Assembly: GCA_003221615.1 (NCBI GenBank)
Contig: QHSQ01000144.1
Coordinates: forward strand, 1-64,000
Origin: Candidatus Rokuibacteriota bacterium
Lineage (GTDB): Bacteria; Methylomirabilota; Methylomirabilia; Rokubacteriales; CSP1-6
Direction of reading: 5' to 3'
Length of the DNA: 64,000 bases
The notes under the pieces were generated by a model. The model worked only from the letters and a program-made list of their open reading frames with translations, did no database searches and was not told where the DNA came from. Shown here one piece after another: positions 17,274 to 22,844 of the stretch. The stretch's first letter is position 1. Each line of letters starts with the position of its first letter. The position numbers were made by a program, and so were the translations under genes.

Positions 17274-18356
17274 TCAGAGCTGGCCATCCAGGCGCACGTC
17301 GATGACGGCGCGCTGCTTGATCTCCTTGAGCCATGCGTCGAGCCGCGTGTCGAACTTCTCGCGGAAGAGGATCTCGCGGATCTGCGCCTTCACGCGGCCG
17401 AGCCCCTCGCCCTCGAGCGTCTCCTTGGACTCGAGTCGGAAGACGTGATAGCCGAGCGCGGAGCGATACGGAACCGAGATCTGCCCGGGGGACAGGCTGA
17501 GGATCTGCGTCTCGATGTCTTGCGCGAGCTCACCGCGCTTGAGCGTTCCGAGATCTCCGCCGTCCCTCGCGCTGGCGTCGCGCGAGTACTGCTTGGCCAG
17601 CTCGGCGAAATTCCCACCCTGCTGCAGCTCGGTCCGGAGCAGATCGGCCCGGATGCGTGCGTTCTCCCAGGCCGCGTCCTCCGGCCCCGTCTCGGGCACG
17701 ATCAGGATATGGGCCGCGTGATAGGAGAGACCGGTCTCGAGCTTCGCGCGGTTGGCCTCGAGGTACTGGGAGACTTCCTCCTCCGTCACCGAGATGCGCA
17801 GCCGCACCTTGCGGCTCACGATCCGGCCTCGGCGCAATTCGTCGGCCACTCGCTTGCGGACCGCCGCCATCGGGATGCCCTGCGCCTTCAGGGCCGCCTC
17901 GAACTCCTCGCGGTTCTTCAAGTTCATCTTCTTGATGCGATCGGCGAGCTCCTCGTCGATTTCCGTCTCTTCGATGACGATCTTTTCCCGCTCGGCCTCC
18001 TGCACCTGGAGCCGGCTGTCGATCATCCGCGTGAGGAACTGCTGGATGAGCTGGTCGGAGTTCTCGTTGGCCCGATCCCGGTTCTCGTACCGGTAGACCG
18101 CGATCGCTTCCTGAAGCTCGGAGAGCGTGATCGCGTCGTTGTTGACGATGGCCAGCACGCGGTCGGTCACCCGGTCGTCCGGGGTCGGCGTGTTGCTCAC
18201 GGTGTTGAGCCTGACCGGCACGGCCGACGTCGCCGGGGCCGCCTTCGGCGGCTCGTCCTTCGTCGGCTTCTCGCCGATGAGCGGCATCCATTGAGGCACC
18301 GAACAGCCGGCGAGGGCCAGCATCAGGAGGGCCGGGCGGGCGAGTCGCCCGATCAC
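17274..18356 (-). CDS. SurA/PpiC-type peptidyl-prolyl cis-trans isomerase, predicted lipoprotein
   Basis: Lipobox LALAGC; SurA-like N-terminus RVLAIVNNDAITLSELQEAI; parvulin domain AAHILIVPETG...QYSRDASARDGGDLGTLKRGEL. Confidence 0.88.
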   Translation of the reverse strand: MIGRLARPALLMLALAGCSVPQWMPLIGEKPTKDEPPKAAPATSAVPVRLNTVSNTPTPDDRVTDRVLAIVNNDAITLSELQEAIAVYRYENRDRANENSDQLIQQFLTRMIDSRLQVQEAEREKIVIEETEIDEELADRIKKMNLKNREEFEAALKAQGIPMAAVRKRVADELRRGRIVSRKVRLRISVTEEEVSQYLEANRAKLETGLSYHAAHILIVPETGPEDAAWENARIRADLLRTELQQGGNFAELAKQYSRDASARDGGDLGTLKRGELAQDIETQILSLSPGQISVPYRSALGYHVFRLESKETLEGEGLGRVKAQIREILFREKFDTRLDAWLKEIKQRAVIDVRLDGQL

Positions 18357-21300
18357 GCGCGCCCCAGATCGGCGAGCACGGCGAGGAGCGAGTCGCGAAC
18401 CCGCGGCCACTCGCCGCGCAAGATCGCGGCCTCGAGCGTGAACTCGCGCTTCATCTTGAAGCGGCCTCGGCTCCGCTGGATGACGCGGACAAGACGCTCG
18501 GGGTCCAGTGTGGTCCCCGGGGAGAACGTGACGAGCGCCTTGCCGTCGCCCGCCTCGATCTTCTCGATGCCCACGGCGCGGGCAGCCACGCGGATGCGCA
18601 CGATGTCCAGGAGCTGCTCGGCCGCGGCGGGCGGGGGACCGAAGCGGTCGGCCAGCTCCGCGCGGAGATCGGCGACCTCCGCGTCGCTGGCGGCGCCGGC
18701 GAGGCGTTTGTACAGAGCGAGGCGCTGATTGACCTCGGGCACATATTCATCGGACAAAAACCCTTCCACGGCCACGCTGATGACCGGATCAACCGGAGCG
18801 GCAGTCGAATGGCCGGCCAATTCTCGCACGGCTTCGGCCAGGAGCTTCGAATAAAGATCGTAGCCGACCGCGGCGATGTGGCCGTGCTGCTGGGCCCCCA
18901 GGAGGTTCCCGGCGCCCCGGATCTCGAGGTCCCGCATCGCGAGCTTGAACCCCGAGCCGAGCTCGGTCAGCTCTTGCAAGGCTCGCAGGCGCCGCTGTGC
19001 CTGCTCGTCGACCCGGCCGTCGGCCGGAACCAGCAGATAGGCGTAGGCCTGCTGGCGCTCGCGCCCAACGCGGCCCCGCAGCTGATAGAGCTGCGCGAGG
19101 CCGAAACGGTCCGCGCGGTTGATGATGATCGTGTTGGACGCCGGGATGTCGAGCCCGGATTCGACGATGGCGGTGGAGACGAGCACGTCGGCCTGACCGG
19201 TGACGAACTTCACCATGGTCGCCTCGAGCTCGCGCTCCTTCATCTGGCCATGGCCCATGATGACGCGCGCCTCGGGAACCAGCTCCTGGACGAGCTTCGC
19301 CATTGACGGCAGCGACTGGACCCGGTTGTGGACGAAGAAAACCTGGCCGCCCCGCTCGAGCTCGCGCTCGAGCGCCTCCTTGATGACGCCGCGGCTGAAG
19401 CGGCGGATGACCGTCTCGACCGGCAGCCGATCCAGCGGCGCGGTCTCGATCACCGACATGTCCCGGACGCCCGAGAGCGACATGTAGAGCGTCCGGGGAA
19501 TCGGGGTGGCGGTGAGCGCGAGCACGTCCACGGAGGCTCGCAGCTGCTTCATCCGCTCCTTGTGGGCGACGCCGAACCGGTGCTCCTCGTCGATGACCAT
19601 GAGGCCCAGATTCTTGAACGCGACGTCCTTCGACAGGAGCCGGTGCGTACCGATCACGACGTCCACGGTGCCCTGTCGCAGCCCCTCGACCACCGTTTTC
19701 TGCTCCTTGGGGGAGCGGAAGCGCGACAGCAGCTCGACTTTGGCAGGGAACGGCGCGAACCGATCGGCGAACGTGGCCCAGTGCTGTTGAGCCAGCACGG
19801 TCGTCGGCACCAGCACCGCGACCTGCATGCCGTCGCCGACCGCCTTGAAGGCGGCGCGGAGCGCGACCTCGGTCTTGCCGTACCCGACGTCGCCGGCGAC
19901 GAGGCGATCCATCGGACGGCCGGCCTCCATGTCGTGCTTGGCGTCCTCGATCGCCTTGAGCTGGTCCGCCGTCTCCTCGAACCGGAAGGCCGCCTCGAAC
20001 TCACGCTGCCACGGCGTATCCGCGGCGAACGCGTGGCCGTCGGCCACCGCGCGCTGCGCGTAGAGGCGCAGCAGTCCCTCGGCCATCTCGCGCAGCGCGG
20101 CGCGCACCGACTCCTTCACGCGCTGCCAGGACGCGCCGCCGAGCCGGTCGAGCCGCGCGGCGCCGGCGTCGCCGCCGAGGTATTTCGAGATCAGCTCGAG
20201 ACGCTCGACCGGCAAGTACAGCCGGTTGCCCTCGGAGTACTCGAGCAGGAGAAAGTCACTCTCGCGATCGCCGACCTTCATCGTCTGCAGACCCAGATAG
20301 CGGCCGAGCCCGTGGTCTTCGTGGACGATGATGTCGCCGGGCGCCAGGTCGGTGAACGCCGTGAGCGCGGCGCCGCGCTGATACTTGGGTCGCCGTAGCG
20401 ACCGGCGCCGCGAGCCGAAGACTTCTCCCTCGGTGAGCACGATGACGCCGAGGGCGGGGATCGCGAAGCCGGTGGAGCACTCGCCGACGACGATCGCCAG
20501 GGTCTGGGAGCCCTCGAACGATGTCGCGATCTCGGCTTCGACCTGGTGCTCGCGGAGGATCTGGCGCACGTGCTCTGCCTGGCGCTCATCGGCCGCCGTC
20601 AAGCGGACGCGAAAGCCCTCCACGCGCCAGCGCGCGATCTCGGCCGTCAGCTGGTTGAAGCGGCCGGTAAAGCGCGGGACTTCCTGCGTCTCCAGCGTGA
20701 TCTCGGTCGCCGCGGAAGCGCCCGCCGCGGCGCTGGATGTGCCGGCAACCAGGCTCAGCTCGACGATCTGGCGGCCGGCGAGACGCTCGCGAAGGGGCGG
20801 CTCGTTCACGGTCTCATCGGTCGGCTCATCGAGGAGCTTCGGAAGGTCGACCAGAACGGGCGCGGCCGCCGGCAGATAGTCGAGGAGGCGCGCCGCGGGC
20901 TCGGGCGCGCTGTCCTCGGGCGTCAGCGGCAGGACGAGCAGCTCGTCGAGGGTTCCCACCGAGCGCTGAGAGGTCGGGTCGAAGAGCCGGATCGACTCGA
21001 TGTCGTCGCCGAGGAACTCGAGCCGGGCCGGGCCCGCCTGGCTCGGCGAGAAGACGTCGACGATACCGCCGCGCAAGCTCCACTGCCCTACCGTCACGAC
21101 CGTCTCGACCTTCTCGTAGCCGCAGCGCTCGAGCGCCTCGAGCAGGAGCTCGCGGTCCAGGCTATCGCCGGTCGAGAGCCGCAAGGTGCGCGCCGCGAAC
21201 TCCTCTCGACTCCACAGCGGGACGACCAGGGCCGCGGGCGTCGCAACCACGGTGACAGGCTCGGCGACGGTGAGCCGTCGCGCGATCACCGCGCGCTCGG

Positions 21301-21586
21301 CGTCAGCTTCCCGGTGGTGGCCGCCGCGCCAGAGCCGTGGCTCCGGCGGGGGAAACTCGAGCGCGGTAGCGCCGAAGAGCTTCAGGTCCTGGGTCCAGCG
21401 GTGAGCGTCGGCAAGGCCCCCGACCACGACGAGGGCGGGGCGCGGATGGGCCTGGAGGAGCTCGGCCACCGCGAGGGCGCGCGCGGAGCCGGTGAGGCCG
21501 GCGACGCGCAGGTAGACTCCTCCCTCGGCAAAGGATTTTGCCAGCGCTTCGAATGCCGGCCATTCTCTCAACATCTCCGCGAGCAC
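18353..21586 (-). CDS. mfd: Transcription-repair coupling factor Mfd
   Basis: 1077 aa; [77 protein letters not shown]. Confidence 0.97.
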
Positions 21587-21610
21587 ACTACGGTATCACG
21601 GCCGTTGAGG

Positions 21611-21794
21611 CGGGCTGGAGGGTGGGGCGGTGGGTGTGGGTGCGGGAGGGGGTCCCGGCTACCACGCGGCACGCGTGCGCTACCCCGCTGCGGCTGGGCT
21701 CCATCCGGGCGCTCGACTCCCGCCGCCCGCTCGGCGGGAACGGGTCCCGGGACCCCCTCCCGCACCCGCACCCACCGCCCCACCCTCCAGCCCG
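21611..21794. repeat. Structured intergenic element 1: 48-nt inverted arms around an 88-nt interior containing the conserved core
   Basis: Arms 21611-21658 and 21747-21794 match at 47/48 as reverse complements; the single difference is G-U compatible. Core shared with element 2. Confidence 0.93.
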
Positions 21795-22004
21795 TCTCCC
21801 GTGCCTTGGCCCGGTCACCCTTGGCTTAGGGCAGCGAAATCGACGACGGTCGGCGCCGACCGGTCAAAGCGCCCCGTTCTCGGATCAGCTCGACCTCGGC
21901 TTGGCTCGTTCCAGGCGCGCCTCGCTCCAGGCTCGACGCCGCCGGGCGAGCTCGATCGCGTGCGGGTTCTGAGTCGAAGCGCTCGGTGTCGGGCGGAGAG
22001 GGAA

Positions 22005-22176
22005 GGGCCGGCGGGTGGGGGCTGGGGGTGGGGGAAGGGGTCGACGGACCCGTTCCCTTCAAGCGAGCGGCGGGAGTCAAGCGCGCGGATGGAGCCCAGC
22101 CGCAGAGGGGCAGCGCACGCGTGCCGCGTGGTCGCGGCGACCCCTTCCCCCACCCCCAGCCCCCACCCGCCGGCCC
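22005..22176. repeat. Structured intergenic element 2: 39-nt inverted arms around the conserved core, core in inverted orientation relative to element 1
   Basis: Arms 22005-22043 and 22138-22176 match 39/39; the 86-nt core is 78/86 identical to the reverse complement of element 1's core. Confidence 0.93.
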
Positions 22177-22193: not shown

Positions 22194-22844
22194 CTAGCGA
22201 GAGGTTTTAGCGAGATAGAACGAAAGAGTTTCGAGCTCGATCGAGAGGTCGACGTTCTTGAGGCGAACGTCGCGCGGAACTTTGATACGGGCGGGTGCGA
22301 AGTTCAAAATGGCCTTGATCCCCGCCGCGGCCAGCTGGTCGGCGACCGCCTGCGCCGCCTCCGTGGGCACCGCGACGATCGCGATCTGGATCCCGCGCGC
22401 CTTCACCTCACGCCCGAGGTCGCGGCTGGCGAAGATCGGCGTCGATTCGACCTCGTGCACGACCTTCGACGGATCCTCGTCGAAGATGGCCGCGATGCGA
22501 AATCCCTGACGGGCGAACCCGCGATAGTGGAACAGCGCCGAGCCGAGGTTGCCGTAGCCGATGAGCGCCACGGGCCACTCGCGATCGAGACCGAGGATGC
22601 GCTGGAGCTCGGCCTTCAGCCCCGAGACGTAGTACCCGATGCCGCGTACGCCGAACTCGCCGAAGTAGGCGAGGTCTTTTCGGACCTGCGCCGAGTTGAG
22701 ATTGAACCGATCCGCCAGCTCCTGCGAGGACACGGTCTTCACGCCGTCCTCTTCGAGCTGCAGCAGACATCGGGTGTAGACCGAGAGACGACGGATCGTC
22801 ATCTCGGGGATCTTCGGGAGGCGAGCGTTCGACCGTGGCATCAT
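22194..22844 (-). CDS. rex: Redox-sensing transcriptional repressor Rex
   Basis: TIRRLSVYTRCLLQLEEDGVKTVSSQELADRFNLNSAQVRKDLAYFGEFGVRGIGYYV; VALIGYGNLGSALF. Confidence 0.95.
   Translation of the reverse strand: MMPRSNARLPKIPEMTIRRLSVYTRCLLQLEEDGVKTVSSQELADRFNLNSAQVRKDLAYFGEFGVRGIGYYVSGLKAELQRILGLDREWPVALIGYGNLGSALFHYRGFARQGFRIAAIFDEDPSKVVHEVESTPIFASRDLGREVKARGIQIAIVAVPTEAAQAVADQLAAAGIKAILNFAPARIKVPRDVRLKNVDLSIELETLSFYLAKTSR

Follow-up and report, generated by a model that had tools for sequence, protein, structure and literature searches.

A dispersed family of extragenic palindromic repeats with copy-specific, co-evolving arms in Rokubacteria

Two hairpin elements between mfd and rex

The region between mfd and rex in this Rokubacteria genome contains two long inverted repeats, and these were the only intergenic ones found in the window (the whole 64-kb stretch of DNA analysed). 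The genes bear the names given to them in an earlier note made from the sequence, with which their translations are consistent. The features of the locus are as follows.

18353 to 21586, minus strand: mfd, downstream gene; start 20 nt from element 1
21607 to 21798, plus strand: element 1, whole hairpin unit; core read on the plus strand
21607 to 21658, plus strand: element 1 left arm (G-rich); 50/52 complementary to 21747-21798
21661 to 21675, plus strand: element 1 conserved block 1, ACCACGCGGCACGCG
21692 to 21705, plus strand: element 1 conserved block 2, GGCTGGGCTCCATC
21736 to 21746, plus strand: element 1 conserved block 3, GGGAACGGGTC
21747 to 21798, plus strand: element 1 right arm (C-rich); partner of 21607-21658
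21799 to 22004, no strand: spacer separating the two convergent elements
22005 to 22176, minus strand: element 2, whole hairpin unit; core read on the minus strand
22005 to 22043, minus strand: element 2 arm; 39/39 complementary to 22138-22176
22047 to 22057, minus strand: element 2 conserved block 3, GGGAACGGGTC on the minus strand
22088 to 22101, minus strand: element 2 conserved block 2, GGCTGGGCTCCATC on the minus strand
22118 to 22132, minus strand: element 2 conserved block 1, ACCACGCGGCACGCG on the minus strand
22138 to 22176, minus strand: element 2 arm; partner of 22005-22043
22194 to 22844, minus strand: rex, upstream gene; stop codon 17 nt from element 2

The earlier note had described 48-nt arms matching at 47 positions in element 1 and perfectly complementary 39-nt arms in element 2, and recomputed complementarity bore out both; the odd pair of element 1 is T.G on the plus strand, and its stem can be extended to 50 of 52 positions. 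The near-identical interiors it reported were also recovered, the cores being 91% alike over 86 nt once one of them is reversed. Folding z-scores were -12.4 for element 1 (as RNA) and -11.5 for element 2 (as DNA), with none of 200 shuffles equally stable in either case. The two elements form a convergent pair, and both belong to a multicopy family with approximately 30 copies in the source genome. An assembly artefact is very unlikely as the origin of the hairpins because the identical architecture recurs in other genome assemblies.

Distribution, anatomy and genomic placement of the family

Further copies of the core, which the earlier note had proposed to seek in related genomes, were found. 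The core recurs 27 to 30 times in the source genome, with 30 strong matches to a covariance model built from 34 copies. Of 95 genomes of the phylum scored with this model, 27 had matches, every one of them within a single Rokubacteria family that also has about 30 non-carrier genomes. Every genome of the genus (nine genomes) carries from 10 to more than 30 copies, scoring having been capped at 33, and the other genera of the family are patchy, one of them (g13) having genomes with 32, 32, 22 and 0. Exact 20-mer matches in GTDB genomes all fell in Rokubacteria except for one Planctomycetia record, which was rejected as a carrier; it holds the 20-mer alone, with no element around it. At a G051 locus (L201) orthologous to L003, an assembly gap (N run) lies exactly inside the hairpin element and, therefore, short-read assemblies probably undercount copies. 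Three head-to-tail tandem copies occupy positions 2001-2491 of locus L148 in G050, with the full distal left arm in the first only; this triplet is a recent tandem duplication. Searches of Rfam returned nothing above the gathering score (two miRNA models lay far below threshold), those of phage, plasmid and viral contigs gave no relevant match, and no description of Rokubacteria repeats was found in the open-licence literature. The elements constitute a real and apparently undescribed family of dispersed extragenic palindromic repeats.

Each element is composed of a stem of 27-55 bp (median 38), with arms 95% complementary, that is capped by a core of approximately 86 nt. The 5' arm is G-rich and its core-proximal end is semi-conserved (GGGAGGGGTCg); in most copies, the GACC that opens block 1 is paired with the GGTC end of block 3. 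Within single elements, the two arms are 0.91-0.96 identical as far as approximately 30 nt from the GGGGTC block, past which identity falls sharply to background, vs 0.62 for arms of different elements (anchored comparison, beyond the first 10 nt). The three blocks of the core are constrained and the spacers between them evolve rapidly: between orthologs, identity is 95.2% in the blocks, 58.8% in the variable columns of the core and 87% in flanks 300-600 nt away. Such constraint on the core implies its putative recognition by a protein or RNA partner, and gene conversion between copies could contribute to conservation of the blocks. RNAalifold applied to both strands of the core gave no consistent internal helix with clear covariation and, therefore, the strand is not decidable from core folding. 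G-quadruplex motifs occur in fewer than half of the copies, on either strand.

With genes called by a simple codon-usage gene finder, the elements were almost always intergenic, mostly just past stop codons (10-40 nt after). Compared with a small, local sample of other intergenes (57 of at least 100 bp), convergent intergenes are enriched (27% of elements vs 5% of background, p=3e-4) and divergent ones avoided (6% vs 37%, p=8e-7). In convergent contexts, the 5' side of the core lies nearer to the gene (median 22 vs 60 nt). Elements occur in both orientations relative to genes, the flanking genes belong to unrelated families, and adjacent pairs of elements are predominantly convergent (14 +-, two ++, one -- and no -+). 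Promoter-like sites in the flanks mostly point outward to the neighbouring genes (for TTGAC in the left flank, 37 outward and 8 inward), and none was found among them that would drive the element.

Concerted change of the paired arms

The earlier note had proposed that the arms are either selected for pairing or homogenised by copying, and had suggested that aligned copies be examined for covariation; that covariation proved overwhelming. In 111 copies, nearly all of them absent from the model-building set, 96.7% of stem cells pair (shuffled, 69.5%; slid, 36-51%), although fitting of these alignments to the model structure makes the percentages lean upward. Among the same copies, 786 cells had changed on both sides vs 24 on one side, with double changes in 27 of the 31 stem pairs. 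The model-building set, aligned without structure, was 90% paired, with 190 both-side and 19 one-side changes. Swaps between GC and CG are common in the stems. A stem evolving stepwise would be expected to leave more wobble intermediates.

Comparison of orthologous loci revealed that many are vertically inherited, with elements at the same place in several species. Of the nine genus genomes, eight have either one or two elements in the mfd-rex intergene itself, and what appears to be a decayed remnant is present there in G051. Drift of orthologs without conserved pairing, raised in the earlier note as the contrary outcome, was not what was seen; the arms change together. In 16 ungapped ortholog pairs, 61 arm changes were symmetric with pairing kept and 40 asymmetric. 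Among 52 pairs with arm indels, the counts matched in both arms in 16 and differed between arms in the remaining 36, a number that alignment error and rapid divergence inflate. Joint arm change is exemplified by L105/L123 and by L015/L176, the latter with matching indels. By eye, the left outer arm of the rex-mfd element of G049 is like element 2 and the right one like element 1, yet the two match; at another locus of this genome, the core has been lost and the arms are still complementary.

Orthologous sites without an element, another check proposed earlier, also exist. At the L014 locus, an element is present in G000 and G049, that of G055 is oppositely oriented and differs in its arms, and the element is missing from five genomes; at this one locus, no core-free hairpin was found where the element is absent. 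In the G000 copy (L211), the predicted stop of the right gene appears by eye to lie inside an element arm, as though the C-terminus came from the element. Across single-element orthologous loci, 32 comparisons showed like orientation and 18 opposite orientation, the comparisons not being independent of one another. With L140/L162, the core is, by eye, reversed between similar arms and flanks, suggesting that it may have been inverted inside conserved arms, as template switching predicts (PMC8604942). Other opposite-orientation orthologs could reflect differential loss within ancestral doublets.

The residual mismatches of the arms are biased by strand. Over the first 30 nt, A.C outnumbers G.U on the core strand by 115 to 43 (p=9e-9), and a per-element sign test gave p=3e-5, with orthologous copies not fully independent. 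The excess was seen in all well-sampled gene contexts and in most genomes, and local gene context does not set it. This bias is notable because the arms are palindromic and hence strand-symmetric, so that its origin must lie in the core or in the wider context. Mutational strand asymmetry was rejected as its cause; substitutions in the core are near symmetric, with no matching asymmetry. A mismatch that is A.C on the core strand is wobble-compatible on the opposite one, where wobble-compatible mismatches are 2.7 times more frequent; this points to a role for pairing on the opposite strand as well. The bias may reflect an RNA of that strand, or strand-specific processing of the hairpin.

Proposed mechanism and its alternatives

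In other systems, template switching is known to homogenise the arms of inverted repeats and to invert the spacer between them (PMC8604942, PMC8794818), and it introduces multi-base compensatory changes in one step (PMC8794818, PMC8604942). The Rokubacteria family is judged, with somewhat better than even confidence, to be a REP-like extragenic repeat in which polymerase template switching between the arms keeps the stem close to perfect (quasipalindrome correction). The stem would provoke template switching during replication, one arm would serve as the template to rewrite the other, and stems would thereby come to differ between loci yet stay near perfect; the core would occasionally be inverted between similar arms. 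That the arms are near-complementary yet copy-specific would probably follow from each having been recopied repeatedly from its partner. Template-switch homogenisation fits the arm data better than does stepwise compensation alone, and of the two possibilities raised in the earlier note, the symmetric changes and occasional symmetric indels of orthologs favour copying; pairing itself may be under selection as well. The strand bias of A.C and G.U mismatches is not predicted by homogenisation alone, and the unequal arm indels in 36 of the 52 ortholog pairs also count against it. Less securely, units or doublets may spread as non-autonomous elements, like REP/REPIN, by a putative factor, against which count the lack of target-site duplications and the failure to find a mobilising enzyme. 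They might persist at gene 3' ends because insertions do little harm there and because such a strong, bidirectional hairpin may contribute to the separation of transcription units.

Arms that change together with pairing kept, and their probable homogenisation, recall quasipalindromes, in which inversion of the spacer is also known (PMC8604942, PMC8794818) and may have an instance in L140/L162. Quasipalindrome correction is described as a mutation process at single sites, whereas a multicopy family with stems of about 38 bp and a spacer of about 86 nt would here be subject to it. REP, BIME and REPIN sequences (GTAG- and CGTC-tagged REPs) are intergenic, near 3' ends, present in tens of copies and patchy between relatives, and are situated between unidirectional or convergent genes as inverted doublets with a spacer or as head-to-head dimers (PMC3116915, PMC3733652). 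Their unit is a 5-13 bp stem with a 2-20 nt loop and a GTAG or CGTC tag at the foot (PMC3733652). The Rokubacteria elements likewise form inverted doublets (14 +-, no -+) and prefer gene 3' ends, but their stems of 27-55 bp surround a core of approximately 86 nt, no common foot sequence is apparent among the flank/arm junctions listed, and the RAYT transposase that accompanies the GTAG type is absent from the genus. Extragenic palindromic repeats in doublets are thus already known; the novelty here lies in a large conserved core, in long arms that co-evolve and in the absence of the usual transposase.

That the elements are instead non-autonomous transposons of the REPIN or MITE kind, with a dedicated enzyme moving single-stranded hairpin DNA and the arms newly formed or recopied at each transposition, is considered somewhat unlikely. 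It would accommodate the multiple copies, their patchiness in sister genomes (32, 32, 22 and 0 in g13), the empty sites and opposite-orientation copies at orthologous loci, and the convergent doublets, as in REPINs (PMC3116915). However, orthologous arms evolve together without movement, many loci are vertically inherited, and no transposition event was caught. Nor was there an excess of direct repeats at element borders that would represent target-site duplications, for which the earlier note had advised looking. Y1 transposase (RAYT; PF01797) gave no match in the nine genus genomes, each with 10 to more than 30 copies, and reverse transcriptase (PF00078, RVT_1) is absent from most carrier genomes, that of the source included; mobilisation by REP/RAYT and by a retroelement or retron were rejected on these respective grounds.

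MITEs and similar small palindromic elements of bacteria include ERIC, Correia, bcr1 and RPE. As with these, the Rokubacteria elements are short, dispersed, palindromic units free of genes. Unlike MITEs, they are conserved at the centre with variable arms, and, in contrast to the DDE type, arms of different elements are 62% alike past the core-proximal end and the boundaries vary; the view of the earlier note that this is not a MITE with conserved termini stands, given termini that are not conserved and no detectable target-site duplications. The attC sites of integrons have paired hairpin arms that vary in sequence by copy, conservation at the ends, and an arrangement in cassette arrays. The Rokubacteria arms similarly pair while varying between copies, but conservation is apical and the copies are dispersed.

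A structured RNA, either a 3'-UTR or a small RNA, with a stem under ordinary pairing selection and stepwise compensation, is unlikely. The strand opposite the core would be the RNA (5' GACCCGTTCCC..GATGGAGCCCAGCC..CGCGTGCCGCGTGGTC), consistent with the 2.7-fold commoner wobble-compatible mismatches there in the face of no matching core asymmetry, and the strong arm covariation, constrained core blocks and avoidance of divergent intergenes agree with such a role. Single-side wobble cells are nevertheless rare (24 vs 786 double changes), GC and CG are commonly swapped, and some indels are matched in both arms; neither strand of the core has a consistent covarying helix, both orientations relative to genes occur, orthologous copies differ in orientation, and the flanking genes are unrelated. 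Covariation is the standard proof of a selected RNA structure. Much of the very strong covariation of these arms appears to be due to copying, and since each genome has dozens of copies and many orthologs can be compared, template switching could be measured against selection on natural bacterial stems. The family, apparently undescribed and from an uncultured phylum, also presents REPIN-like doublets without the REPIN transposase.

The strand bias would find a further explanation in a self-templating hairpin element, the core of which dictates that one strand is transcribed or exposed, with its hairpin as its own template, so that the stem would be rewritten by the element itself, and a putative enzyme recognising the core, but this is regarded as distinctly unlikely. 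Of similarly low probability are bidirectional intrinsic terminators or stabilisers of mRNA 3' ends. Such functions would be in keeping with very stable stems located 10-40 nt past stop codons and enriched in convergent intergenes, but stems of about 38 bp are far longer than those of terminators, the flanks listed had no noticeable T-run after the stem, and their base-composition profile shows no apparent T-rich tract, in agreement with the earlier note's exclusion of a Rho-independent terminator. Moreover, this would leave the conserved core of approximately 86 nt unexplained, and most genomes of the phylum, including those of sister genera, do without the elements. Pre-existing host 3'-end hairpins, with loops invaded by a mobile core and arms of host sequence, would account for unrelated arms around one core, but this scarcely credible origin was rejected with the essential absence of core-free long hairpins from 0.54 Mb of related loci (the core was present in 162 of 174 long repeats, and the rest lie mostly between paired elements or are unrelated), the lack of such a hairpin at the orthologous empty sites of one locus, and the GGGAGGGGTC end shared by the arms.

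Some features of the flanks and spacers were also recorded. Good sigma-70-like promoters (TTGACA-N18-TAGGCT and similar) are positioned just outside the elements at L107, L106, L125 and L164, facing away. Short tandem motifs of the type GCGCGCTTGAT / GCGCGATTGACGTGATGCT occur near the elements in the spacer or flank of L125 and L186, and the rex-mfd spacer of G052 (L103) contains long direct repeats around GCGTGAGGCTAAGCAAG.ATC.CCGTGACAATCGCG between its two elements.
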